The notes below the pieces were generated by a model. The model was given only the letters and a program-made list of their open reading frames with translations, had not been told where the DNA came from and did no database searches. Of a DNA stretch of 64,000 nucleotides, positions 5,037 through 64,000 are shown piece by piece; positions within the stretch are counted from its first letter, which is position 1, and every line of letters starts with the position of its first letter. The stretch covers positions 185,001-249,000 of the forward strand of contig JAPJBO010000182.1 of the NCBI GenBank assembly GCA_030068145.1. The letters run 5' to 3'. The translations under genes were made by a program, and so were the position numbers. Origin of the DNA: Diplonema papillatum (lineage: Eukaryota; Euglenozoa; Diplonemea; Diplonemida; Diplonemidae).

Positions 5037-5126
5037 GATCAACACCAAGGCCACGTCAAGGAGATCCACATCCTTCAGGTTGAACTACCATAGTCACCAA
5101 AGGAAAGAGGCTCACACAAAGCGAAC

Positions 5127-6353
5127 ATGGACCGTGTATCCTTTGTCCTCGCCAACAAGGCCGACGTGCGTGAAGCCGCCACGGTGAAAAACGCGTTGCC
5201 CGGAGCAGTAGAAGCAGGAATTAGTCAGCACGCAAGCGACCTGTACGACGAATTCGTCCGGTCAGCCGACGCGGAGCAGGACCCTGTGAAGAGAGCGTCA
5301 CTCGCGGTGGTCAGTCTCGAGCTGTGCGCGTTAAAAACGCAGATGAACCCCCCGTCGGTAGAGGAGGTGAAAGAACTGATGGCCGACCTCCATAAATGGA
5401 ACATGCCAGACATGGAAAGCATGGCCAGGATAGACGTACCGGTTGCCGACTTAAAAAGAGAGCGAATGAGTCTGGCAAACATAGGTAGTATCCGTGAGAT
5501 CGGGACGAAGTTGAAGGTACAAGACGAAGGCGGAAAAACGAAGGGTGACCCGCGAAAAACGGTCAACATCGACCAAAGGCTGAAACAGCTGAACCTGCAC
5601 GACATACCGAGCGTGTTAAAACCGGATGGACCCCTCGTGAAGGCGATCCTCCTCCAGATGGAATCCGGTGTCAGGTTGCCGCTAGACTTCTCACCGAAGA
5701 AGGCTCCTCTTTTCCCGACGAGGGCGGCAGATGCTTTCAACATCACTTTTTCGCCGATACCAGCAAAGGTAGACGAGGCAGTGTACGAAGAAGCGAAGAA
5801 GCAAGTAGGACAGGCGGCTGACACAGCGCACAAAAACATCCTGCTCGAAGTATCGTCGAAGATGGATAAAGAGATGATGCCCAGCACTACGCATATACTG
5901 ATGCGGATTCGGCACGCGATAGCACTGCTGGTGTGTGAGGCGGTTCCTCAAAAGGAGCAGCTTAGGCTGATCGTCATGGTAGCCAGCCAAATCCCGCTGG
6001 TGGCATCACACACAAGTGCTAACAACTGCTACATGGCGGCGGTAAAGTACGAGGAATACGCCATGAAGAGAGCGACGGACCTATCTCGCGACGTTTCGGT
6101 AGAGGAGACGATGCACACTCTCGTCAGGGTGGAGTCCGACACGGTCAAGGCGTTTAAGGAAAAGGTGGAGCTCCAACGCGAGCACGCAAAAATCACGAAG
6201 CAGACCGTGGCCGCCACGAAGCCGACTCTGGTCACCAAGAATCGCAACGTGACACACCCAGACTCGCAAAGGTACGAGCCATACGGCAAGACCTCTGGGA
6301 AAGGTGGATTGAACAAGCCGGGACACAAAGGCAGATATCAGCAAAGAAACTGA
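5127..6353 (+). CDS. Gag-like protein of YR retrotransposon
   Basis: A 408-residue protein from the first ATG after the leader repeats (context GCGAACATGG), ending in TGA. It is expected to form or bind the cytoplasmic ribonucleoprotein of the element. Most of the chain looks helical and charged. The C-terminal 30 residues are basic and rich in Gly, Lys, Arg and Gln, as expected for nucleic-acid binding; no CCHC zinc knuckle is present. Assignment as Gag rests on position (first gene after A1, directly before RT) and the basic tail, not on a recognised domain. The downstream RT frame is in the same phase and no other stop separates them: after the TGA at 6351-6353 the frame stays open into the polymerase. 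Codon use looks like that of the RT gene, consistent with one transcription unit. Confidence 0.85.
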   Translation: MDRVSFVLANKADVREAATVKNALPGAVEAGISQHASDLYDEFVRSADAEQDPVKRASLAVVSLELCALKTQMNPPSVEEVKELMADLHKWNMPDMESMARIDVPVADLKRERMSLANIGSIREIGTKLKVQDEGGKTKGDPRKTVNIDQRLKQLNLHDIPSVLKPDGPLVKAILLQMESGVRLPLDFSPKKAPLFPTRAADAFNITFSPIPAKVDEAVYEEAKKQVGQAADTAHKNILLEVSSKMDKEMMPSTTHILMRIRHAIALLVCEAVPQKEQLRLIVMVASQIPLVASHTSANNCYMAAVKYEEYAMKRATDLSRDVSVEETMHTLVRVESDTVKAFKEKVELQREHAKITKQTVAATKPTLVTKNRNVTHPDSQRYEPYGKTSGKGGLNKPGHKGRYQQRN

Positions 6354-6578
6354 CTCACCGTCTCAGAGACCACACGATCCAACGTCGCACAAACACCTAT
6401 CCTCTTTCATCCAGCCCTTCAGACGTCTTCTTCACCACCACGCGGCTCAAGCCATAAGCTGTGGCTTCGGTGTGAAGGCCCGTCGCAGAAGAACCAAGGG
6501 TCGCCTTTCCGTTCCGTCAACGATCATGATCCTCTGCAGAAACAGAAGGGCGTGTTTTACTCGTTCCAGGCAAGTTCG

Positions 6579-8591
6579 ATGGAAGAACACGCTGCGATGA
6601 CGGCAACAATTAAGTCGCACACATTTATGGCATCGCAGCTGGATCCTGATCTTCAACAGTGCATCCGTGTATACGCTTACAACACGACAGCAGAGAACCG
6701 GAACTTTCGAGCATGCCGCATCCTGTATTGGGCGGATAGGGCAGAGAAGAACAGAGCAGATAAAGCACGTTTCGACTCGTTCTTCGACACGAACCACCCG
6801 GCATATGCCATCGCGAGCAGGATCAACGTACCTGTCGTTGAAGAAGTTCTCGAGCTGATTGGTGCCGCAAAACCGGGAGTAAAGAACGAGTTCGTCCGAA
6901 GGTTAGGATTCGGTTTCCCGGTGGTGGACGATTTATGCGAAGAAGGAGTGTTTGATATCAACCCGGAGAACAGGAGTGCAAGGAAAAAATATATCTCAAC
7001 GAAGAAGGCACTGCAGAACAACCAGCAGCTTCTACTGGCGTCCCTGAGGCAACAAAGCCTACGTGACGGGAACCTGCACGAGATCTCCGCCCAGCTGAAG
7101 ATGGAAGTTGAGAAAGGATGGCTGGAAGGTCCGTTCTCGACAGAAACCCTCCCCGTGGAGCAGTTCATCCCGATACGGAGATTTATCGTCATCCAAGGCG
7201 ACAAGCACCGTGGTTGTGACAACGGTCGAGCAACGAACCGAATAACCAGGGTGCACTCTCCTATAACCTTGTTAGGAGTTGACAACGTGGTGGCAACGTC
7301 CGTCGCATTGTTCCAACATGGGGTCGAGCAGCAGTCACAGGCGGTCCTGGACCAGTCGGATGCCTACAAATCGTTAATAGCTGACAAGACTCAACGAAAG
7401 TATGCTGTCATCGTCGCGATGAATGCAGAAACTAAGCAGCTGGAACTCTACCTGAGTAATGTTCTATGTTTCGGGACAGAGTCTGCAGTTCTCGACTACA
7501 ACTGTTTATCAAGATTCATCACAGCGGCGGCGCGACGAATCATGGGGATCCCAGCGTCAGGATATTTCGATGACTTCCACATGCTTGGAAGAGAAGACGA
7601 CATCGCACAAATGGCGAACGACTTCCAGGAGTTTTTCTCGATGATCATCGGACTAATCTTCAAGGAGAAGAAAAAGAGGATAGGACAGCGGACGCAGTAT
7701 CTGGGCGTTTGCATCGACGTCTCTTCTCCCGGAACACTGTCGCTGTCGATAACGAGCGAACGGGCAGAGAAGCTGAGAAGAACGCTGCAAGAGTGCTTGC
7801 GCGAAGACGCATTGTCCCCGCAAATGGCGGGCAAGCTAGTTGGACAGCTGAGTTTCGTGCAACAACACATGACAGGCGCAGTGGGGAGAGCGCTCCTCCA
7901 TCCAATCCGGTCACGACAATACACCAAGGTGAACGTAACGAAACTGGGTGGACGACTGCGGGCTGCGCTCGGCTGGTGGGTTCAGGCGTTGTCCCACTCC
8001 CGTTTTCAGCGTCGAATCGACCTGAAGACCATCTCCACGCCTCGGACGCCCATCGTCGTTTACACAGATGCAACCTTGGGCCAGCTAGGCTTCTGCATCG
8101 CGTATAAGGAGTACCGATACTACGGAAACGCGTACTCAGCAGTGACGCCGGCGAATCACAACCGACACATCGTGGAACAGAACGACACGGAGAACATACA
8201 GCTGTATGAAACTGAAGTCGTAGTCGCGATACAGTGCTTCATGAACGATAATCATGAAACCCTGTTTCCCTCGTCGGTCCTTGAGGATGATTTCAGGAAC
8301 ATCCCGAAGTATTACTTTGTTGACAACGTGTGCTCTCAGGCCACATTAGTCAAGGGGTTCTCGAAGAACCCGCTGTTCAACCACTTAGTCCAAAACTTTT
8401 GGTTCGAAGCAGTATCCTCAGGGTCTATGGAAGTGTGGCTTGAGAGAGTTGAATCGGCTCATAATCTGGCCGACCTTCCTTCGCGGCAGATGGGCCGAAT
8501 CAAGTTCCTCGAGGAAATGGGATATAAATACATCCCACACTTTGAAAGCGTCCTGTTCACAGAAAGGATGAAGAACCTAAGCACCTCGTAG
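6579..8591 (+). CDS. reverse transcriptase-RNase H of YR retrotransposon
   Basis: Copies the element RNA into DNA and degrades the RNA strand. From the first ATG (6579) the protein has about 670 residues; the frame is open from 6354, right after the gag stop. A linker of roughly 160 residues precedes the RT fingers (FIVIQGDKHRGCDNG, near 7177-7221, the DIRS-type motif around the first catalytic Asp). The palm motif is GYFDDFHML (about 7558-7584), an F-DD form of YxDD, followed by a KKKRIGQRTQYLGV thumb-side segment. RNase H follows with its acidic residues in order: YTDAT (about 8059), ETEVVVAI (about 8208), FVDN (about 8320) and NLADLPSR (about 8463). No methyltransferase-like domain follows, unlike Dictyostelium DIRS-1. 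The frame ends with TAG. All catalytic residues are present, so it may be functional. Confidence 0.95.
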   Translation: MEEHAAMTATIKSHTFMASQLDPDLQQCIRVYAYNTTAENRNFRACRILYWADRAEKNRADKARFDSFFDTNHPAYAIASRINVPVVEEVLELIGAAKPGVKNEFVRRLGFGFPVVDDLCEEGVFDINPENRSARKKYISTKKALQNNQQLLLASLRQQSLRDGNLHEISAQLKMEVEKGWLEGPFSTETLPVEQFIPIRRFIVIQGDKHRGCDNGRATNRITRVHSPITLLGVDNVVATSVALFQHGVEQQSQAVLDQSDAYKSLIADKTQRKYAVIVAMNAETKQLELYLSNVLCFGTESAVLDYNCLSRFITAAARRIMGIPASGYFDDFHMLGREDDIAQMANDFQEFFSMIIGLIFKEKKKRIGQRTQYLGVCIDVSSPGTLSLSITSERAEKLRRTLQECLREDALSPQMAGKLVGQLSFVQQHMTGAVGRALLHPIRSRQYTKVNVTKLGGRLRAALGWWVQALSHSRFQRRIDLKTISTPRTPIVVYTDATLGQLGFCIAYKEYRYYGNAYSAVTPANHNRHIVEQNDTENIQLYETEVVVAIQCFMNDNHETLFPSSVLEDDFRNIPKYYFVDNVCSQATLVKGFSKNPLFNHLVQNFWFEAVSSGSMEVWLERVESAHNLADLPSRQMGRIKFLEEMGYKYIPHFESVLFTERMKNLSTS

Positions 8592-8629
8592 TGGTTCTGA
8601 TAACGTCGTTTCCGTCCTAGTGGGGGGCA

Positions 8630-8995
8630 ACACAACCTGGCATCGCATGAAAGTCAGGTCGCCCGCTGAACACGTCAACGTTTCTTCCTCCCACCGGCGC
8701 ATAGAGTCTGGCATAGCATAAATGTCAGTTCTTCATCTTCTGCCCTGACATCGCATAAATGTCAGTTCTTCGTCTTCTTCTTCTGAAACATGTCTGCGAC
8801 TGTTCCACACAACTCGAAAAGTTGCCTAGACATGATTGTCAGGTAGTCAACAAATGCCAACGTGCAGTCCTCTCCCCTTGAGCATCGCAACTTGAGACTA
8901 GCTTGAATAAAACTTCCTATTCTGCAACACGTCTATGACAACGCATCCCAACTCGAAAAGAGACAACCCAGGCATCGCATAAATGTCTTCAAGGT
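8630..8995 (+). repeat. hairpin-forming repeats between RT and B1
   Basis: Five or so degenerate copies of a short unit around GGCATCGCATAAATGTCAG. In the best copies TGACAT and ATGTCA pair around CGCATAA (for example 8749-8767). They follow the RT stop codon and precede B1. Spacing is irregular (60-120 bp). Probably an RNA structure in the untranslated region; role unknown. Confidence 0.6.
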
Positions 8996-9161
8996 AGTGG
9001 CATAACCATCAGCTAACGTAGCGAACCCGAAAACACTCGGAAAGAAGCGCAGATGAGTCGAGAAGCTTTCAGCAACCTTCCCTTTGCTGTTCCCGGTCAC
9101 AGAGCTAAGATCAACACATCTCTCTTTCTGCGATGGGACCAGGTGGACAGAGATCTGCGAA

Positions 9162-9399
9162 GGGGGTGGAAACATCTCTGTCGAAGACCTGGATTCCTCA
9201 GTTTCGGAGCGTACCAGATGCAGATCTTACTCGGAGTGGCTCTGCGTATCGTCCGAACTTACCCATCGCAGACGAGTCGTCCAGGAAGAAAGACTCGCCA
9301 AAAGATAGTATGAAGATGTTATGTCTTGTAACACAGGGAGCTGCGCAGGGCTTGCGCCATCACTGCCGTCTGAGACGAAGAGTTGACCGCGAAAATAAA
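9162..9399 (+). repeat. split direct repeat B1 of YR retrotransposon
   Basis: 238 bp from GGGGGTGGAAACATCTC to CGCGAAAATAAA, repeated at 10706-10943 with one visible substitution (GCCATCAC against GCCAACAC). It abuts A2 without spacer. Confidence 0.92.
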
Positions 9400-9538
9400 G
9401 AAGACTTTAAGTTCGTACTGAATGCGAATGACAGAGAACTAAATAGTCTTTTATTTTCGATTAGTCAACCTCGGCGACCGCGCAGGAAACGTCTTCGAAG
9501 AAGAAGTCTCACGTACACTACGTACAGAGAAAAGTTTC
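9400..9538 (+). repeat. split direct repeat A2 of YR retrotransposon
   Basis: Identical by eye to A1 (4720-4858). It lies directly upstream of the recombinase ATG at 9559. Confidence 0.92.
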
Positions 9539-9558
9539 CCCTCCCACCCACCCAGAGA

Positions 9559-10698
9559 ATGCCTCAACGGAATTACCCGACTGGACCGGAAGTCATCCGC
9601 ATGTTGAAAGCTGAAATGGACCGTGAACCGCAGGCAGAATCCGTGATGACAGACCTGACGGTAAGCCGGAAAAGGAAGCTGGAGCACCTTTCGACACTGT
9701 GTCCGCTTGCAGCACGGTCTAGCGTTGAACGGGCTGCTCAGTCGCTCACGACTTCCTCGGTCGAAGCAGGGACCTGGCAGCAGTACTTCGTTGCTGTACG
9801 GTCCTGGACCAACTTTGCGGACGCAATCAACTGTCGCCACTTTCCCATAGGGTCGGAAGAGTTGAGGCTATTCGTGACTACGCATACGAACGCCGGCTCT
9901 GCCGAGAGCACGATTTCTGCCTTGGAAAAAGTGCAACGATTCCTCGGAATCAACGAGCCGCTCCGAAACCCCCTCGTGAAGGATGTCCTCCAAGGGGTGA
10001 GGAGGAAACAGAAAGGAAAAAGGAAGATGGATGCCATCACGTCGAAGCTTCTCGACAAGATCGTAGACGATACCTCCCCTATCACGGGCCCCAGCAGCTC
10101 CCTACGGGAGTTTCGACACCTGGCTGTCTTGTCGTACGTGTTTCTGCTGCGCATGCAAGACGAGGCGATTCCGCTTCGCAGAGGGCTCGAAAGCGACTCA
10201 CCGGCGAAGGCGCTACAAGACGTCAGGGCTTCGAATCGACACAGCGCAGTCTTCAAATATAAACAAGAATTGCATATCGTGTTTAAAAAGCGAAAGAACA
10301 TCCGTCAAGGGGAAATGTTGATACGGGGCTGCATGTGCAGAACTAGAGAAGTTGTCGTTGGATGGCGGGCAATTTGCCCAGTACATCAAATATGGCCGTA
10401 CATCCGGGACAATGTTGCTCACGGTGCAGCAATATTCGGCATGAAGTACCCCGACATGCTGGAAGCGGTAAAAAGAAAAGCCGCGATATTTCAGCAGCCT
10501 GTGATCGGATGGGGAACACACAGTTTCCGCAGGGGTGCTGCTCAGGATGTGAACGAGGATAACCCCGAGTTGGCTGTCCTTCTGAAGGCAGGAAGTTGGA
10601 ACTCGAAAACCTTCGGGGAGTACCTAGACTGGTGTAAGATCCAGAAAAAAGGCATGGAAATGGTAGCCCAGCGCGATCAAGATACGGAGAGCGAGTGA
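9559..10698 (+). CDS. tyrosine recombinase of YR retrotransposon
   Basis: Integrates the circular cDNA by site-specific recombination, in place of a DDE integrase. A 379-residue protein from the ATG at 9559, just after A2; the frame is open further upstream through B1-A2 (to an ATG at 9133), but that part duplicates the terminal repeats and is probably not coding. An N-terminal SAM-like DNA-binding half (about residues 55-165) precedes the catalytic domain. Catalytic residues seen: Arg in VFLLRMQDEA (about 10138-10167), HxxR in THSFRRGAA (about 10516), then a GSWNSKTFGEYLDW segment with the nucleophile Tyr (about 10621). The His/Lys between boxes is less certain. Ends in TGA eight bases before B2. 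Length and motif order fit the phage-integrase family as found in DIRS-order elements. Confidence 0.93.
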   Translation: MPQRNYPTGPEVIRMLKAEMDREPQAESVMTDLTVSRKRKLEHLSTLCPLAARSSVERAAQSLTTSSVEAGTWQQYFVAVRSWTNFADAINCRHFPIGSEELRLFVTTHTNAGSAESTISALEKVQRFLGINEPLRNPLVKDVLQGVRRKQKGKRKMDAITSKLLDKIVDDTSPITGPSSSLREFRHLAVLSYVFLLRMQDEAIPLRRGLESDSPAKALQDVRASNRHSAVFKYKQELHIVFKKRKNIRQGEMLIRGCMCRTREVVVGWRAICPVHQIWPYIRDNVAHGAAIFGMKYPDMLEAVKRKAAIFQQPVIGWGTHSFRRGAAQDVNEDNPELAVLLKAGSWNSKTFGEYLDWCKIQKKGMEMVAQRDQDTESE

Positions 10699-31838: not shown

Positions 31839-33813
31839 TTATAAGACTTGATAAAAACACGAAAGAGCAGAATTTCCCCCCTTACCTGTGACAGCGTTGA
31901 AGGATCCCGATCCAAGACGTTCTGTCATCCTGCGGTTGATGTCGCCGGAGTCTGAGACCGAGCTTTGGTCCCTTTTCTGGTCCTTCGGCCACAGGTTGGA
32001 CAGGGCGCGGCGGCCCGCGTGGCGGACCGTCCTCCTGCCGTCGGCGATCTCGTTCGCGCCCGCCGAGTCGCGGCCCTGCCCCACCCACCCCTTGCCGCGC
32101 GCCCTGCCGACCAGCGGCGCCTGCTCCGACGCCAGCAGCAGCCGCCGAGGGGAAAGCACAGAGAATGAGTCGCACGGCCCGCCGCCGCCGTCGAAGAAGC
32201 CGTCGTCGTGCACCTTCGGATCCCGCGGGAGAAGGACCGAATGCGCTCGAGTCTGCGCACCGGTCACCCGGAACTCAGGAGTGCGAGGCGACGTGACCGA
32301 GCCGAACTTACCTGACCCTTGGAGGATTTCAGCCATTTCCACCGGATCCGACGCCTCAGAACTCTCCCTGCCAACACCTCCCACCCCAGATGATGCCGAC
32401 GCTCGCCCGCTGCTGGCCGGGCTGGTGGTCGCTGCGAACACGCCGAAGACAGACGGCCGCCAGCGGCCGCCGGTGTGCCCAGCCGGCAGCTTCGGCGGAG
32501 GATCGTCGCGGGGGGACGGCGCGTAAAGCCGCAGCGGCGCCGTCGCGGCGCTGCCGTGGGTGTCGAGGGTCGCAGGGGTTTCGGCGGGCCGCCGGGTGCC
32601 TGGCTTCCACGTCAGTTCGTCGAGGAGGACGAAGCTTTCTTGCGGAGATACCTGCCCGCGGTGGGAGGGCCCGAAGGCTTGGTCTTGGAGGCGGTCGCGC
32701 CTGCCGTTGACCAGGACGAAGAGCTCGGTGAGGAGGTCGCAGGCGATTTTAAACGCCAGAATGCACCACGCCGCCCAGAACAACCGCTCTGCGGCGACGT
32801 GGGTCCAATGGTCCGGGTCACCGGTGTAGAACCCGGCGGCAGTGAGCACCAAGCCGGCTGCTTGGCAGAGGAGGAAGAGGAAGTCCGACACGTTGTTCCG
32901 GCCGCGGTCGTGGGGACACACCGCCAGCTCCGCCGCGAGCTGCACGAGGAAGATGAGCGCAGAGAACAGCTTCACGTGCCCGCAGGCCACCACAGACTCG
33001 ACGCGCATAGCCGCGGCGGCGCCGAGGGCGAACATCGACCCGTATTCGATGCACGCGAACCACACAGCGTCCTGCCGGTACGTCCGCACGACGCCGGCAT
33101 ACCGGTTGACCCAATGGTTCCGCCGCTTCACGCTCACCCACTCCCCGGGGCCGATCAAAAACGCCCATACCCGGCCAGAGTACCGGGCGTCCCGGAGATA
33201 CACGGCCTTGACTGGCACCGCCTTGTGCACGCGGAGCGCGACGGCGGTGGGGACGACGAGGCATAGCATGAGGGAGAGGACCCCCGCGAGGAATCCGATG
33301 ACGTGCGGAGGCTCCATGAGCAACCGCATGGTGCCGTACGCCGTGCCTTGGTACAGGACGGTGAAGAACATCAGCGGGGCTGAGGGAAGGCGGACGAAGC
33401 CTTGCGCGTCGAGAGTGTCGAGCAGGCCAGGGAACGCGCAGCGGGTCGTGGCGCGGGTGAGCTTGAGGAGGAGGTAGCAGAGGGTCGAGAAAACGACAAT
33501 CAGCGCGAGGTTCCCGAGCACCATCCCGAGCGGCACGCTGCCGTCGACCGAGACGTCGGTCGGGTGGAAGGCCCGCGGCAGCTCGTGTTCGCGGCCCATC
33601 GCGTGGCAGCCGGCCGTCGTCAGCAGCAGCCGCGACGCTGTGCCGCCGGTCGTCCCGGCCGAGGACACTGCGCTCGCTGCAATCACTCCCGGGTAGCCAC
33701 GCGCCGCCGCCTCGGTCACCTGCACCGCCGGAGACTTCTCGTACATGATCGCGAGCGCCCGGTCGCGGTCCGTCTGGTTCTGCCCACCCCCACCACCACC
33801 CCCCCCCGCCGGG

Positions 33814-33854
<41 letters not shown>

Positions 33855-36800
33855 GGCCGTGGTGGGCGGCGCCACGACGGCGGGCGGAGCCGTCGCGGCG
33901 GCGGGCGCAAACGTCAGCGGCGGGGTTGCCGTCGCCGGTGCGAAGGTTCGCGGGGCGGCGCTGCTGGGGGTAGCCGTCGCGGGGGCGGCGGTCTGCGGGG
34001 CGCCGCTTGTTGCAACGGGTGCGGGGGCTTGGGGTGTGTCGCTGGGTGTGATAGTCTGTGGAGCGTCGCTCGGTGTGGCAGTCTGTGGAGCGTCGCTGGG
34101 TGTGATAGTCTGTGGAGCGTCGCTCGGTGTGGCAGTCTGTGGAGCGTCGCTCGGTGTGGCAGTCTGTGGAGCGTCGCTCGGTGTGGCAGTCTGTGGAGCG
34201 TCGCTCGGTGTGGCAGTCTGTGGAGCGTCGCTCGGTGTGGCAGTCTGTGGAGCGTCGCTCGGTGTGGCAGTCTGTGGAGCGTCGCTCGGTGTGGCAGTCT
34301 GTGGAGCGTCGCTCGGTGTGGCAGTCTGTGGAGCGTCGCTGGGTGTGATAGTCTGTGGAGCGTCGCTGGGTGTGATAGTCTGTGGAGCGTCGCTCGGTGT
34401 GGCAGTCTGTGGAGCGTCGCTCGGTGTGGCAGTCTGTGGAGCGTCGCTCGGTGTGGCAGTCTGTGGAGCGTCGCTGGGTGTGATAGTCTGTGGAGCGTCG
34501 CTCGGTGTGGCAGTCTGTGGAGCGTCGCTGGGTGTGATAGTCTGTGGAGCGTCGCTGGGTGTGGCAGTCTGTGGAGCGTCGCTCGGTGTGGCAGTCTGTG
34601 GAGCGTCGCTCGGTGTGGCAGTCTGTGGAGCGTCGCTCGGTGTGGCAGTCTGTGGAGCGTCGCTCGGTGTGGCAGTCTGTGGAGCGTCGCTCGGTGTGGC
34701 AGTCTGTGGAGCGTCGCTGGGTGTGATAGTCTGTGGAGCGTCGCTCGGTGTGGCAGTCTGTGGAGCGTCGCTGGGTGTGATAGTCTGTGGAGCGTCGCTC
34801 GGTGTGGCAGTCTGTGGAGCGTCGCTCGGTGTGGCAGTCTGTGGAGCGTCGCTCGGTGTGGCAGTCTGTGGAGCGTCGCTGGGTGTGATAGTCTGTGGAG
34901 CGTCGCTCGGTGTGGCAGTCTGTGGAGCGTCGCTGGGTGTGATAGTCTGTGGAGCGTCGCTGGGTGTGGCAGTCTGTGGAGCGTCGCTCGGTGTGGCAGT
35001 CTGTGGAGCGTCGCTCGGTGTGGCAGTCTGTGGAGCGTCGCTCGGTGTGGCAGTCTGTGGAGCGTCGCTCGGTGTGGCAGTCTGTGGAGCGTCGCTGGGT
35101 GTGATAGTCTGTGGAGCGTCGCTCGGTGTGGCAGTCTGTGGAGCGTCGCTGGGTGTGATAGTCTGTGGAGCGTCGCTCGGTGTGGCAGTCTGTGGAGCGT
35201 CGCTCGGTGTGGCAGTTGACGGTGCGACGGTCAGAGGTGAACTGGAAAGTGGCGCAACTGTCAACGGCGAGCCGGTAGCTGGTGAAGCAGTTGAAGGTGA
35301 ACTTGTGGGTGGTGCAACAGACACAGGTGCCTCAGTCGATGGTGAATTGGTTTGCGGTACGAAGGTTGACGGCGCAACTGTCATAGGCGAACTGGTTGCT
35401 GGTGTAGCAGACACAGGTGAAATAGTCAATGGTGAATCGGTTTGTGGTACGAATGTCAAAGGCGCACTGGTCGACGGTGCAGCAGTCGCAGGTGAACTGG
35501 TTGCGGGTACCTCAGTCGATGGTGCAACTGTCAAAGGCGAACTGGTAGCTGGTGCAACCGTCACAGGTGCAATAGAAACTGGTGAAACAGTCAACGGCGA
35601 ACTGGTTGACGGTACGAAGGTCAAAGGTGCACCGGTTGACGGTGCGACAGTCACAGGTGAACTGGAAGCTGGTGCAGCAGTTGAAGGTGAACTGGTGAGT
35701 GGTGAAACAGTCACAGGTGCGCTGGTTGACGGTACAAGAGTCACAGGTGCGCCGGTTGTTGGTGTCGCAGGAACCTCAGTCGGTGGTGAACTGGTTTGCG
35801 GTACGAAGGTCAACGGTGCAACAGTCACCGGTGCACTGGTTGCCGGAGCATCCGTGGACGGTGCATCGGTTGATGGGGCACTCGTAGACGGTGCATCAGT
35901 TGCTGGGGCACTCGTAGACGGTGCGTCAGTTGCCGGAGCATTCGTAGACGGTGCATCAGTCGGCGGAGAACTTGTAGCCGGTGCATCGGTCGCCGGAGCA
36001 TTCGTAGCCGGTGCATCAGTCGCTGGGGCACTCGTAGACGGTGCATCAGTTGCTGGGGCACTCGTAGACGGTGCATCAGTTGCTGGGGCACTCGTAGACG
36101 GTGCGTCAGTCGGGGCACTCGTAGCCGGCGCATTAGTTGCCGGAGCATTCGTAGCCGGTGCATCGGTCGCCGGAGCATTCGTAGCCGGTGCATCAGTCGC
36201 TGGGGCACTCGTAGCCGGCGCATTAGTTGCCGGAGCATTCGTAGCCGGCGCATTAGTTGCCGGAGCATTCGTAGCCGGTGCATCGGTCGCCGGAGCATTC
36301 GTAGCCGGTGCATCAGTCGCTGGGGCACTCGTAGCCGGCGCATCGGTCGCCGGAGCATTCGTAGCCGGTGCATCAGTCAGCGGAGAACTTGTAGCCGGTG
36401 CATCAGTTGCCGGAGCATTCGTAGCCGGCGCATCAGTTGCTGGGGCACTCGTAGACGGTGCGTCAGTTGCCGGAGCATTCGTAGACGGTGCATCAGTTGC
36501 TGGGGCACTCGTAGACGGTGCGTCAGTTGCCGGAGCATTCGTAGACGGTGCATCAGTCGGCGGAGAACTTGTAGCCGGTGCATCGGTCGCCGGAGCATTC
36601 GTAGCCGGTGCATCAGTCGCTGGGGCACTCGTAGACGGCGCGTCAGTCGGGGCACTCGTAGCCGGTGCATCAGTTGCCGGAGCATTCGTAGCCGGTGCAT
36701 CAGTCGCTGGGGCACTCGTAGACGGCGCGTCAGTCGGGGCACTCGTAGCCGGTGCATCAGTTGCCGGAGCATTCGTAGCCGGTGCATCGGTCGCCGGAGC

Positions 36801-38060
36801 ATTCGTAGCCGGTGCATCAGTCACTGGGGCACTCGTAGCTGGCGCATCGGTTGCCGGAGCATTCGTAGCCGGTGCATCAGTCGCTGGGGCACTCGTAGCC
36901 GGCGCATCGGTTGCCGGAGCATTCGTAGCCGGCGCAGCACTCGGAGAGCTCGTAGCCGGCGCATCACTCGGAGAGCTCGTAGCCGGCGCATCACTCGGAG
37001 AGCTCGTAGCCGGTGCGTCGGTTGCTGGGGGGGGTGCACTGGTGGCCGGCGCATCAGTCGGCGGAGCTGCCGTATCCGGTGCGAGCGTGCTGGTCGCGCC
37101 GAAGACGGCGACGCCGCTGCCTTCGCACGCGTGCAGCCTGTCCGCGACGTAGAACAACCCTTCCGACGCGACCGACAGCGCGGCCAACCAGCTGCCGACA
37201 GGCGCCCCCGCGGCCACGCTCGCCAGTGTCACCTCCTGCACGGCGGCACCGGACGAATAGTAATACAGCTGCCGGTCCGGATCGTACTCCACCGCCGTCA
37301 CCTTCTGCGCCGTCACCAGAGGCGTCAAGCGGACGAGTGCCTCTGGGTCTGCCGCGTCGTAGAAGTCGATTCCGTCGTCGTTCGCCACTGCGAGAATGCC
37401 CCTGTCCCCGCTGATAGCCAGGTCGTAGGTGGCGGTGGTCGCGGTGGTGCCGATGAATTTCAGCTTCTTCGGCTGGAAGACGTCGAAGACGTCGAACCCG
37501 ACGCCGAGGCCGACGAAGAGGTAGTCCGTGATGAAGAGCAGGCTCGTCGGGTTGGCCGACGAGCACGGCCAGGTGCCGAGGATATTCGGCAGGTTGTTCG
37601 ACTGCACCCCTATGTTCTCGCACGCGAAGAACTGGTACTGCTTGTCGCCTTTCACGGCCGCCGGGCATCTGGCCCCCACTGTGTCCGTCCGGGCCTGCGC
37701 TTCGTTGCCGCCCCACCGGTACCTGACTTGCCCTGTGTCCGTCCCGAAGAACAGCACCGGGTACGGCCGGCTGTCAACGTCCGTCACAGCCAGAGCTTGC
37801 TCCGAGTTCTCGAATGTCGTCGACGGCAGGTCGACGCAAGCCGCCCCCGTGCAGGTCATCCGGGTCACACCGCTGGTCGCGGCGGCGACCACGTCCCCAG
37901 TGGCAGCATCCGCCCAGATGTCCAAGCACGGCCCCACGGCCGCCACCCGGTGGATCTCGACCAAAACAGCGTCCGCTGCGCGCAGCTGCAGCAGCGGCAG
38001 CAGCAGCGGCAGCAAAAGCAGCTGCCGCAGCGAGTAAGAAAAGAAGTGTTCGCGTAGCAT
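31839..38060 (-). CDS. mucin-like polytopic membrane protein
   Basis: About 2070 residues from the ATG at 38060, chosen because it starts a clear signal peptide (MLREHFF then a Leu-rich core). N-terminal ectodomain of roughly 330 residues has beta-propeller-like strands (for example TYDLAISGDRGILAVANDDG). A stalk of more than 1000 residues follows: TDAPATNAPATSAP-type repeats, a mixed Thr/Ser/Pro section, then 44 copies of the 9-residue unit TPSDAPQTA/I. A poly-Pro/poly-Gly hinge leads to a C-terminal region with about six or seven hydrophobic segments (for example around 33520, 33330, 33260, 33010, 32950, 32860, 32770) and a long Ser/Arg-rich cytoplasmic tail. The stalk would be heavily O-glycosylated. 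Likely a surface receptor or adhesin; family not recognised. The 3' end probably splices at CACAG/GTAAGG (exon end 31886), so the listed last 15 codons may be intron. Confidence 0.85.
33788..33858. repeat. C-run/GGC-run encoding Pro-Gly hinge
   Basis: CCACC/CCCCCC followed by (GGC)n, read on the minus strand as about 16 Pro then 8 Gly. Strand composition flips in the middle. Confidence 0.85.
34033..35214 (-). repeat. 27-bp coding minisatellite with higher-order structure
   Basis: Forty-four 27-bp units (GTCTGTGGAGCGTCGCTCGG + TGTGGCA on the plus strand), each encoding nine residues. Two main types differ at two sites, CTCGG...GGCA (Ala) and CTGGG...GATA (Ile). In protein order the pattern is AA, IAIAAAAA, IAIAAA, IAIAAAAAA, IAIAAA, IIAAAAAAAA, IAI. 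A hybrid unit CTGGGTGTGGCA occurs at about 34554 and 34959, exactly 15 units apart. Confidence 0.93.
35830..37035 (-). repeat. coding repeat for Thr-Asp/Asn/Ser-Ala-Pro stalk
   Basis: 12- to 15-bp steps with a 30-36 bp supra-unit (GGTGCATCAGTTGCCGGAGC + ATTCGTAGCC on the plus strand). On the minus strand it encodes alternating TDAPATNAP and TDAPATSAP. More diverged than the 27-bp array, so older or under different constraint. Confidence 0.9.
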
Positions 38061-38238
38061 TTTTGAGTGGCTTCCCCCCCCCTTCTTCCCCCTTCTCAAA
38101 GACACGCTCTCTCGCCCATGCCCGGGAGGGGGGCGGTAGGAACCTGGCGTTGGTGCGGTGGCGAGTAGTCGTATACACGGCACTATAGTAAGTAAGTAGC
38201 ATGTTAAATTCTCTTGAGAGGCTCATGTCAATTTAAGG

Positions 38239-53773: not shown

Positions 53774-60541
<6,768 letters not shown>

Positions 60542-60942
60542 CTGGTAAGGGGAAGCCGTGTACCCATTCTCCCGAAGCGTCTGTGTTGTTGTTGGGCGAC
60601 TGGGGCGAGTGCATATTCACGTCCAGCCTCAAAGACAATCCGAGGAAGGCTATTGGTCGAGGACTGCCCCTTTCAAAGCATGAATGGAATGCTTAAAGCA
60701 CCAATCGAAGCTTGACGCGAAACAATCTCAGAATCTTATAGATACTGGAGTTAAAGCCTGGTATGGAGAAGCCGTGTCCCCCTTTCAGGTAAGGATTTCC
60801 AATCCAGATCAACCACCAAAACATGCAGCCTACGTCTTTTTAGCCTGCGCAATACATTGAAGGGCAACCCGCAAGAGTGTTCGTTCGAAAAAATGAAGGA
60901 CACCCCCTCTTGTCGCGTAACAAAGATTCCCCTTACACAAAC
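60542..60942 (-). other. inferred intron of the giant gene
   Basis: On the minus strand: GAG/GTTTGTG at 60943/60942 and CCTTACCAG at 60542. Removing the 401 bp joins two phase-0 exons without a stop. It contains the ACATTGAAGGGCAACCCGCA segment shared with 4668. Confidence 0.5.
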
Positions 60943-61359: not shown

Positions 61360-61450
61360 GGTAAATTTCCCTTATATCCCACCCCAAACAAATTTGTGCC
61401 CTTATATCCCACTTCAAACAAATTTTGTGCCCTTGTATCCCAATCGTATC
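61360..61450. repeat. TTATATCCCA repeat shared with 18.7 kb
   Basis: Three copies of CCCTTATATCCCA(C/A)...CAAACAAATTTTGTG at about 25-30 bp spacing. The complement GGGATATAAGGGAACAAAAT is the unit of the palindrome region at 18739-18880. It may mark the 5' end or insertion site of the LINE that follows. Confidence 0.75.
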
Positions 61451-61553
61451 GAAGCGCCTCCTCGTGCGTGTGCGCGGTGCCGGCGGGCTGGAACAGGTGC
61501 GCGCCGCGGCGGGGAAGCACGCCGCGGCGCCGCTCGTTCTGGCGCCTCGGTTC

Positions 61554-62228
61554 ATGGTGACCGGGGCCAAGCCGCGTGAGCACGAGGCAGACGTCGTGGC
61601 GGACCTGAGACGGGCCGGTTGGGCTGTGGAGCCCGTCTCGGCGTTCGTCCGCGGCGGTAGCAGGACGTGCGTGGTGGCGACGATTGAGCCGCCGCCGTTC
61701 CGGGTGCTGGAGCGGGGGAACGCGCCGCCGCTCGTCGTGAACGACTACGACAGGAGCGAGCTGCCGCGGGAGGCCCGCAAGAAGCTGGCCGGCGGGGGGC
61801 CTGCCAAGACGCGCCGCGTGAAACTGCCGGCGGCTGAAGCGGGCGCAGGCCCAGCGACTTCGCCCCCGGCTACACAAGGCACGAAGCGGAAGGGGCGAGA
61901 GCCTGAGGAGCCCGCCAAGGCGGCGACCGTGGAGCCCGGTATCCTCCAGCGGGTCGTTGAAGGAGTGGTGAACGCCCTCTCCCCGCCCCGCCAGCGCCTG
62001 CGCGTGTCTGGGGAGGACGAAGAGATGACGGGGGGACCGGCCATCGATGCGACCGCGGGCGGGCAGGAGCAGGGCGGCCACCGTCACTCCTTCGACGCGA
62101 GCCGCGTAAGCAAACCGAAAAACGGCTTCACTTGCGCCATCTGCAAGGAGGAGAAGCTACCGAAGCAGGTGCGGAGGGCGTGCAAAGGCTGCGACATCTT
62201 CGCATGCCAACTGTGCAGCAAGTGTTGA
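61554..62228 (+). CDS. LINE ORF1, zinc-finger protein
   Basis: 224 residues from the first ATG; the frame is open about 40 codons further upstream without an ATG. A mixed N-terminal region is followed by a basic Ala/Pro/Lys linker (KRKGREPEEPAKAA) and a compact C-terminal zinc domain FTCAICKEEKLPKQVRRACK then GCDIFACQLCSKC (CxxC, CxxC, CxxC), RING- or treble-clef-like. Placement before an endonuclease ORF suggests an RNA-binding ORF1. It ends in TGA (62226-62228), but the same frame continues into a 2A-like motif at 62280-62318 and stays open to 62453. GC-rich codon use matches ORF2. Confidence 0.75.
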   Translation: MVTGAKPREHEADVVADLRRAGWAVEPVSAFVRGGSRTCVVATIEPPPFRVLERGNAPPLVVNDYDRSELPREARKKLAGGGPAKTRRVKLPAAEAGAGPATSPPATQGTKRKGREPEEPAKAATVEPGILQRVVEGVVNALSPPRQRLRVSGEDEEMTGGPAIDATAGGQEQGGHRHSFDASRVSKPKNGFTCAICKEEKLPKQVRRACKGCDIFACQLCSKC

Positions 62229-62279
62229 CTGCCATCGCACCACGACGCCAGTGCCGGCGGGGATGCCGCCAATCTGCAC

Positions 62280-62318
62280 CTTCTGAGGTGCGGGGACGTC
62301 CACCCCAACCCAGGGCCG
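62280..62318 (+). other. 2A-like motif, first copy
   Basis: LLRCGDVHPNPGP in the ORF1 frame, after the ORF1 TGA. It fits the DxExNPGP ribosome-skipping signature except for His in place of Glu. Similar peptides occur at the N-terminus of trypanosome L1Tc/ingi and of CR1-like LINE proteins. Confidence 0.7.
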
Positions 62319-62398
62319 GCCCGCGCCGTCTGCCGCGGGCGACGGATTTCGCCGCGAGGCCAAGGGCCCCCGACGTCGTCGCACTTTGCGCTTGTTGA

Positions 62399-64000
62399 TC
62401 TTCCTCTTGCTGCCTTCGCGCCACAGTGCCCGTACTGCGAGCGGTCCGTCTGAGAAGGTGCGGGGATGTGCACCCCAACCCGGGGCCCGCTCCGATGATC
62501 TCTCTTGCGGTGATCAACACCACCGCCTTCCCGAACCACGTTGATGAGGTGCGTAGCCTCATCCCTGCGGACGTCATCGGCATCCTGGAGACGGCGATGT
62601 CGAAGAAGCAGCAGGGCGAGATGTCGAGGTACCTGGCGGAGCCATGCCCCGCCGACTCTGGAAGATGGGGATCGCTGTGGGGGCCCCCGCGACCTCCCAG
62701 GGGTGGTAACCCCAACTTCGGAACGATGGGCGGAGGTATTGGCGCCATCAACCGGCGGCCGGGGGTCGTACATGCGGTGCACAACGGCGCCATCGCGGGA
62801 TCATCCGAACGGGTCCTGCACATGATGGTGGCGCTAGGAGCAGGAAAGACTTTCCTACACTGCTTCGTGGTGTACGCCCCCTGCGGCCCGAATACGATGG
62901 CAGCCAGGGAACGCCTGCTCCAGGCGGTCCTCTTCGACGCGCAGGCAATGGTGGGAGGGGCCCCGGCTGTCGTCCTCGGGGACCTGAACACGGACACGGA
63001 CAGGTCTCCGGCGCTGCGGAGCGCGCTCGGCAATGGCTGGGTCGATGCCGCGCAACTGCAGGCGCAGCACGACGGCGCGGTGCGGCCTCCTCCGACTTAT
63101 ACGACGTCGAAGGCGGAGACGCGCATCGACTATGCGCTGATGAACAGGTCTGCGGCCCTTGCATTTGCCGGGTGCAGCACCTTCAATGTTGGTAGCGTCG
63201 GTAGCCACCGCTGCGTCTGCGTGCAGCTGTCGCTACCGGCGTTCAACCAAATGACGCTGCGTTACTCCGTGCCACGTGCGCTCCCTCCGGTGAGCAAGCC
63301 CGACGCCCCTGTGCCTTCGCTGGAGGCGTTCGAGGGGGCACTGGCAGACGGGGACGTAGAGCTGGCTTGGGGTGAGCTTTCGGCGGCATGCGAGCAGCAT
63401 CTCCTCGACAGGTGCGATGTGCCGGCGGCAAAGGCACGCCCGTATGTAGGCCGTGGCCTCGCGAGGGAGCCGAGGCGGGTCCGGGCGGTTGCCCGGAGCT
63501 GCCCGGGGAAGGGCGTTACGTGCGAGGCCGAGCTGAAATACGGCAAGGCCATCACACGGCTGATGCACTACGTGCACGCACGAAGCCGCCTGGAGGTGTC
63601 CGGGCCGTTCGTCGTGCCGCAGGATCTGCGCGCTTGTTGGGCGCGGTGCATCCCGGTGCTGACGTGTGAAGGGGAACCTCCGCCGCCGGCTGAACCTCCG
63701 CCTGCCGAGGCCGCCCGGGCTATGCTGCATCGAGTCAGAGCCCGGAGCGCCCAGCACAATGCGGCGGCCAGGCAGAGCCGCGAACGGCAAGCCCGCCAGG
63801 GGCTCCGAGAGAGGTATGCCACGGACCGCAGATCGCTGGTTTCCATGCTGAGGGGTGACACCAAGCCCTCGGCGGACACTCTCAGAGCTGATGGCGGCCG
63901 CCTTACGGCGAACCTCGACGAGATGGATGATGTCCTCCAGCAAGCTTGGGGCCCCATCCTGAGGCTGTACTCGCCGGAGACCCCCGAGCCCAGCTACGAC
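62399..64000 (+). CDS. LINE ORF2, APE-type endonuclease (runs off window)
   Basis: Open frame of 534 codons from the TGA at 62396 to the window end, with no stop. It begins with a second 2A-like motif, LRRCGDVHPNPGP (62450-62488), just before the first ATG (62495). The endonuclease/exonuclease/phosphatase fold is seen through VVYAPCGPN (about 62867), VVLGDLNTDTD (about 62970), RIDYALMN (about 63122) and SVGSHRCV (about 63198), the usual order of the NxxxP, GDxN, DY and S(D)H motifs. The N-terminal part of the nuclease (QExK-type motif) is not obvious and may be divergent or lost. The following 260 residues are an Ala/Arg-rich linker leading toward the RT, which must lie beyond 64000. The enzyme would nick target DNA for target-primed reverse transcription. 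Confidence 0.85.

Follow-up and report, generated by a model that had tools for sequence, protein, structure and literature searches.

How two-ORF LINEs make the right small amount of ORF2 protein (ORF2p) is a long-standing question. It is raised by the element at the 3' end of the window (the whole 64,000-nucleotide stretch of Diplonema papillatum DNA analysed here), in which a TGA separates ORF1 from two 2A-like (StopGo) motifs and ORF2. The window's final 2.5 kb is a LINE of family A on the + strand, with the following features:

61450..62225, + strand: 3' part of LINE ORF1, about 260 aa (translation; siblings match at 98-99%, n=8, from 61450)
62226..62228, + strand: TGA of the ORF1/ORF2 junction, with CTG next; proposed programmed readthrough stop (sequence; family rows)
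62229..62318, + strand: 2A unit 1, 30 codons LPSHHDASAGGDAANLHLLRCGDVHPNPGP, in the ORF1 frame across the TGA (sequence, unit alignment)
62319..62406, + strand: linker joining the two 2A units, damaged by the loss of 155 bp near 62340 relative to siblings (sibling alignment)
62407..62488, + strand: 2A unit 2 with a leading TTG, the counterpart of unit 1's TGA (sequence, sibling alignment)
62489..64000, + strand: start of ORF2, whose APE-type endonuclease domain adjoins 2A unit 2 (PF03372, E 7.6e-10)

ORF1 gave no match in a Pfam search, and its C-terminal end is a Cys-rich finger named by eye (CAIC...CKGC....CQLCSKC). A zinc finger straddling the UGA, considered on account of HH soon after it in families A and E, was rejected; family B has SH and locus L073 shows no such match. 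Past the TGA the ORF1 frame stays open for 74 further codons, which include LLRCGDVHPNPGP (GDVHPNPGP, 62292-62318). A second motif, RRCGDVHPNPGP (GDVHPNPGP, 62462-62488), lies 170 bp downstream in a different frame, just before the first ATG of that frame (62495-62497). Both the in-frame continuation past the TGA and the position of the second motif had been described in an earlier note on this DNA, and the sequence bears them out. ORF2 extends past the window end through a reverse transcriptase to a TAG stop; its window part matches PF03372 (Exo_endo_phos), and L014 (family A) and L025 (family B) each match both PF03372 and PF00078 (E 1.9e-22 in L014). With endonuclease then reverse transcriptase in ORF2, the element and its relatives are APE-type non-LTR retrotransposons. 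Truncation at the 5' end varies among copies, as sibling matches to the window begin at 61450, 61551, 61592, 61808, 61907 or 61933, and the window copy is itself truncated at about 61450.

Two long open frames were also observed on the - strand of the window. The frame at 53774-60616 (2,280 codons) is rich in poly-Gln (CAG/CTG tract) and in imperfect repeats, and may be repeat-driven, the antisense frames being open too. The frame at 31842-38222 (2,127 codons) contains long Ser/Thr/Pro/Ala repeats of the SDAPQTATP and ATDAPATNAP types, with an extensin-like match below the Pfam cut-off.

The GDVHPNPGP motif is not a chance occurrence, since its DNA pattern has 224 matches in the 271-Mb genome and 0 for a reversed control. 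In family A the two motifs share a frame and are spaced by 336 bp in 12 of 14 loci examined, the remaining two being L010, with motif 2 only, and the window copy itself (L016). In family B they lie in one frame, 252 bp apart, in six of the eight places read; at C16:69149 the first motif reads NPSP, and at C16:141258 the second was not found. Relative to its siblings, the window copy lacks 155 bp of the linker and, after 62444, 11 bp of 2A unit 2; this second deletion leaves the upstream part of the unit out of frame with its own motif. The frame change therefore follows from the loss of 166 bp in total, and the different motif frames are, on the aligned sequences, damage to one copy and not design. 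The ATG at 62495-62497 is likewise an ACG-to-ATG change, absent in all three family-A siblings aligned. Sibling alignment, which had been proposed as the check on the TGA, the motifs and the frame change, thus shows the first two to be conserved and the frame change, with its two deletions, to be confined to the window copy. The siblings did not give the alternative outcome, a single motif with one continuous ORF2 start; the TGA and two in-frame motifs occur in 12 of 14 family-A loci. The window LINE is best explained as a 5'-truncated, frame-broken member of a young family whose layout appears intact in other members.

Conservation of the TGA was read by hand in alignment rows crossing the junction, leaving out C430 and rows with unit 2 only. 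Among the matches listed (150 of 438 candidates), all 28 rows of family A have it, as do 74 of the 76 rows of family B. The two family-B exceptions have a sense codon at the junction: L060 (row C669, AGA), a single copy with an open frame of 319 codons, and the decayed L063 (row C1663). Locus entries found with the junction pattern, some of which count one place twice, have TGA in 55 of 56 cases and AGA in one. Family D, a single decayed copy (C18), retains the TGA with a degenerate motif, DVHPNTGP. The four family-A copies with a complete ORF2 (L011, L014, L015 and L020, of which L011 and L020 are 5'-truncated within ORF1) differ by 1-6 nt over the 5,484 nt from the TGA on, and all have the TGA followed by 1,827 open codons ending in TAG. 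Since these young copies and the diverged family B carry the TGA and motifs, neither the TGA nor the two motifs are damage, unlike the frame change.

The sequence past the TGA is under protein-level selection, which was computed for families A and B only. Their ORF2s (L014 and L025) are identical at 903 of 1,640 aa (55%) with pS 0.64, and synonymous sites are near saturation. The 30 codons past the TGA are the best conserved stretch, with 24 of 30 aa identical, pS 0.775 and pN 0.161, compared with 79 of 175 identical in the last 175 aligned ORF1 codons. Changes in these 30 codons number 7, 4 and 18 by codon position, so that 18 of 29 fall in third positions (P 0.0014). This bias and the low pN indicate that the stretch is translated in the ORF1 frame. 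The two families have no in-frame AUG in common ahead of the endonuclease; A has its first at codon 179 after the TGA, past both motifs, and those of B are codons 19, 62 and 138.

The conserved stretch coincides with the first of two duplicated 2A units. A 30-residue unit is alignable in five sequences with pairwise identities of 19-27 of 30, and units 1 and 2 share 20 of 30 residues in A and 23 of 30 in B. The codon leading unit 1 is TGA in A, B and D, and that leading unit 2 is TTG in A and TGG in B. Both families carry two units, and the duplication is an old one. Unit 1 adjoins the UGA and unit 2 adjoins the endonuclease domain, separated by a linker of 82 codons in A and 54 in B. A and B align poorly over this linker (17 of 40 codons), which makes a conserved accessory protein there unlikely. 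The 2A core in both families is DVHPNPGP, with His at p14, in place of the canonical D(V/I)ExNPGP, and canonical cores (DIEENPGP, DVEQNPGP) occur in other LINE families of this genome. His at p14 is described in the available part of one report as a rare variant that occurs naturally and retains over 95% activity when assayed in reticulocyte lysate (PMC12846837). According to the accessible text of another, 2A activity is confined to about 25 residues (PMC11512398), which fit inside the 30-residue unit past the UGA. The earlier note had offered two readings of the duplicated motifs. Decay of one copy does not hold, as neither motif is decaying across the family. The reading that fits best is an unusual expression route, since the duplicated motifs, the first reachable only via the TGA, are kept in siblings and in the diverged family B.

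A single in-frame TGA at the ORF1/ORF2 junction also occurs in several other 2A-LINE families of this genome. A looser DNA pattern, D(V/I/M)xxNPGP with middle A in the third codon, gives 889 genome matches and one in the control, and the genome is strikingly 2A-rich for a eukaryote. Among 11 further 2A loci sampled, three (L073, L074 and L076) have an ORF1-like frame that leads across an in-frame TGA to the 2A. In six (L066-L068 and L070-L072) the upstream frame is open along the whole stretch read or almost so, L067 having two stops far upstream, and two show apparent decay (L069 and L075). For family E (DIEENPGP), among the matches listed (150 of 482 candidates), all 23 rows that cross the junction with 89% identity or more have the TGA; the weaker rows C629 and C32 have the TGA plus other stops or a second TGA. 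A related group, among the same matches listed (150 of 482 candidates), has the TGA in nine of nine rows passing the junction (C7, C21, C35, C205, C359, C472, C602, C817 and C825), and row C662 (20-78), which ends at the junction, has no stop. The junctions of C7, C21 and C35 lie 1.36 kb before DVEQNPGP motifs, the intervening DNA being unread. Families F, F2, F3/F4 and C391, which have a different ORF1, have the TGA in 26 of 26 rows across the junction among the matches listed (150 of 295). Family C has one 2A in a continuous frame without a stop in two of three loci (L026 and L027), the third (L028) being broken. In rows whose letters were not read, the stop type refers to the match only, and protein queries that span a junction favour junctions in frame. 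No relatives outside this genome were found among the viral contigs scanned.

Further 2A-bearing elements were observed in the same sampling. DVEQNPGP is the core of locus L067, and in both L066 and L067 an AlkB-like 2OG-Fe(II) oxygenase domain (PF13532) closely precedes a canonical 2A (DIEQNPGP/DVEQNPGP), after which comes an endonuclease-like start; they are apparent LINE families. Tandem 2A-like units also characterise a separate family, loci L065, L068, L070 and L071; in L065 about 37 codons separate them, and they have the form GRGGDDPC..GDV-xR-N/H-PGP and then GRGGDDLC.DGDIHPNPGP. The first unit of L065 is the canonical DVERNPGP, and in L068, L070 and L071 His replaces Asn.

A TGA between structural and enzyme frames is also present in a DIRS-like retrotransposon of the window, identified by eye and by one sub-threshold RVT_1 match:

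5094-10698, + strand: DIRS-like retrotransposon
5094-6353, + strand: gag-like ORF
6354-8591, + strand: reverse transcriptase ORF in the gag frame, after TGA CTC
9109-10698, + strand: putative tyrosine recombinase ORF, ending in TGA

Among the matches listed (150 of 213 candidates), 59 rows cross the gag/pol junction with 40% identity or more, and 57 of them have TGA; C1762 has two TAA, and C694 has no stop. Below 40% identity, no stop lies in the aligned part of 11 rows of a 36% group or of C1903, five others have TGA, and the alignments of a large 38% group lie wholly beyond the junction. No 2A was noticed in these DIRS-like elements.

Fifteen junctions were read, with the following contexts:

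LINEs: A, B and D, TGA CTG; E, TGA CTA; L073 and C35, TGA CTC; F, TGA CGT; F2, TGA AAG; F4, TGA CCC
DIRS-like elements: window, C103 and C116, TGA CTC; C433 and C94, TGA CTA G; C482, TGA CTA

C follows the TGA in 14 of 15 junctions and CT in 12 of 15, F2 being the lone non-C. When the junctions are collapsed by hand to 10 groups, C follows in nine and CT in seven, compared with 28% and 6.4% after TGAs of the window (P 7.6e-5 for C and 4.3e-7 for CT); counted as three lineages only, CT follows in two of three (P 0.012). The published motif for high readthrough is UGA CUA G, and a C in the position next to UGA favours readthrough, according to the available part of that work (PMC12233894). No stable RNA fold was detected after the UGA in a shuffle test of pseudoknot-free folds (z 0.07 and 1.21 for A and B, -0.23 for the DIRS-like element), and single-sequence folds of the A, B and D junctions showed nothing notable. 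The marks of stop readthrough found here are a conserved stop with a selected in-frame segment in A and B, and a leaky context, UGA C; a stimulatory RNA structure downstream, which many but by no means all readthrough sites have, was not detected.

These observations of anatomy, conservation, coding constraint past the UGA, duplication and context bias probably reflect a mechanism in which UGA readthrough sets the ORF1:ORF2 ratio and tandem 2A units free the ORF1 protein (ORF1p) and ORF2p; readthrough itself, at whatever rate and with whatever inserted residue, and skipping by both His-variant 2As in the host are inferred from them. The intact layout is ORF1, UGA, 2A unit 1, linker, 2A unit 2 and endonuclease/reverse transcriptase in one frame. 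Most ribosomes would terminate at the UGA and release ORF1p, and a minority would decode it, in the context UGA CUG, as an amino acid. After 29 further codons, unit 1 would free ORF1p bearing a short tail, and unit 2 would then free the linker, so that ORF2p begins with Pro right at the endonuclease domain. The UGA would thereby determine the ORF1p:ORF2p ratio, like the gag stop readthrough of some LTR elements, with 2A in the protease's place, and either 2A unit could cover for the other. Comparative support for this combination of readthrough and 2A, as read from sequence, is strong. Against it stand the lack of a stable fold past the UGA, the TGA-AAG context of F2, the sense-codon copies L060 and L063 of family B, and the 2A loci, family C and DIRS-like rows in which the junction TGA is missing.

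The best surviving alternative, still an unlikely one, is termination at the UGA followed by reinitiation at the adjacent CUG or another non-AUG codon, which would make ORF2 a separate cistron and leave unit 1 to remove only a 29-residue leader. Stop-restart coupling is known in the LINE SART1, according to the accessible part of PMC5972666, and CTG follows the TGA in A, B and D. However, no AUG overlaps or directly follows the stop at the junctions read, and the next codon varies (CTG, CTA, CTC, CGT, AAG, CCC) with no conserved start codon. Reinitiation also needs no common frame of ORF1 and ORF2, yet all 15 junctions are in frame, a count that protein queries spanning the junction favour.

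Full decoding of UGA in this host, by a code change or as selenocysteine, would turn the element into one long ORF and is very improbable. tRNA-Sec genes are present, two of them above the cut-off, and TAG is the stop of the complete LINE ORF2s seen and of two histone H3-like genes. Against this, the 2,462 codons of L014 contain 31 TGG and a single TGA, sited at the junction, no SECIS-type Rfam match was found at E up to 1 in L014, L016 and L025 (only L016 having a long 3' region), and the DIRS-like element of the window uses TGA as the stop of its putative recombinase ORF. The H3-like genes (L077 and L078, contig C511) end in ...RRIRGDLL-TAG, the usual histone H3 end being ...RRIRGERA, and a genome-wide search with histone C-terminus patterns recovered no true gene end (one H4 match, ending in TGG, and none for H3).

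Least probable of all is that the UGA is a fixed inactivating mutation in copies spread by the ORF2p of UGA-less sources: trans-mobilised non-autonomous elements are generally common and sense-codon family-B copies exist (L060 and L063), but L060 is one copy, the same stop occupies the same junction in diverged LINE families and DIRS-like elements with a +4 C bias, and coding constraint between A and B continues past the UGA.

The components of the readthrough and 2A mechanism are already known, each singly: LINEs with 2A, picornaviruses with several 2As, and retroelements that use stop readthrough. The 2A-like sequences of non-LTR retrotransposons are reportedly the subject of work by Heras (2006) and Odon (2013). 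As cited in the available text of PMC4981915, 2A-like sequences occur in APE-type LINEs including L1Tc of Trypanosoma cruzi, those of sea urchin and others. As far as those descriptions go, families A and B resemble L1Tc-type LINEs in having a 2A-like motif and an enzyme ORF with endonuclease and reverse transcriptase, and differ in the His at p14, the in-frame duplication and access only through an in-frame UGA. The candidate case of Candida Tca2 (gag-UGA-pol) shares the single in-frame stop between structural and enzyme ORFs, according to the accessible part of PMC2194720, whereas the element here is a LINE and not an LTR element, no downstream RNA structure was detected, and StopGo would replace the protease. 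The same source gives no readthrough for Tca2 in S. cerevisiae, which counts against readthrough here. Picornaviruses with multiple 2A-NPGP units, as described in the part of PMC11512398 available, likewise have at least two units in frame with each other, spaced by tracts of about 50-150 aa, but in a polyprotein without an internal stop, whereas here a UGA lies 29 codons before the first skip site. The cardiovirus StopGo near a frameshift site also places two recoding events together (PMC5009743, available text); there the frameshift comes after StopGo, and here stop readthrough would come before it. No LINE that pairs UGA readthrough in series with tandem StopGo was found in the literature searched, most subscription journals lying outside it.

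This single genome holds a series of arrangements, from a continuous ORF with one 2A (C), through UGA with one 2A (E and F), to UGA with two (A and B), alongside DIRS-like elements with UGA and no 2A noticed. A broader proposal, tentative and somewhat less probable than its opposite, is that the host reads UGA-CUN leakily and that unrelated retroelements, among them several LINE lineages and the DIRS-like elements, have converged on a genome-wide UGA checkpoint between the structural and enzyme ORFs. In LINEs this checkpoint would be coupled to one or two StopGo sites, and A and B would make three products (ORF1p, linker peptide and ORF2p) in a ratio set by readthrough alone. With young copies so nearly identical, a direct reporter test would be easy. 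If true, these LINEs would carry a serial recoding cassette, in which readthrough is followed by peptide-bond skipping twice, and the leaky termination of the host would shape its mobile elements.
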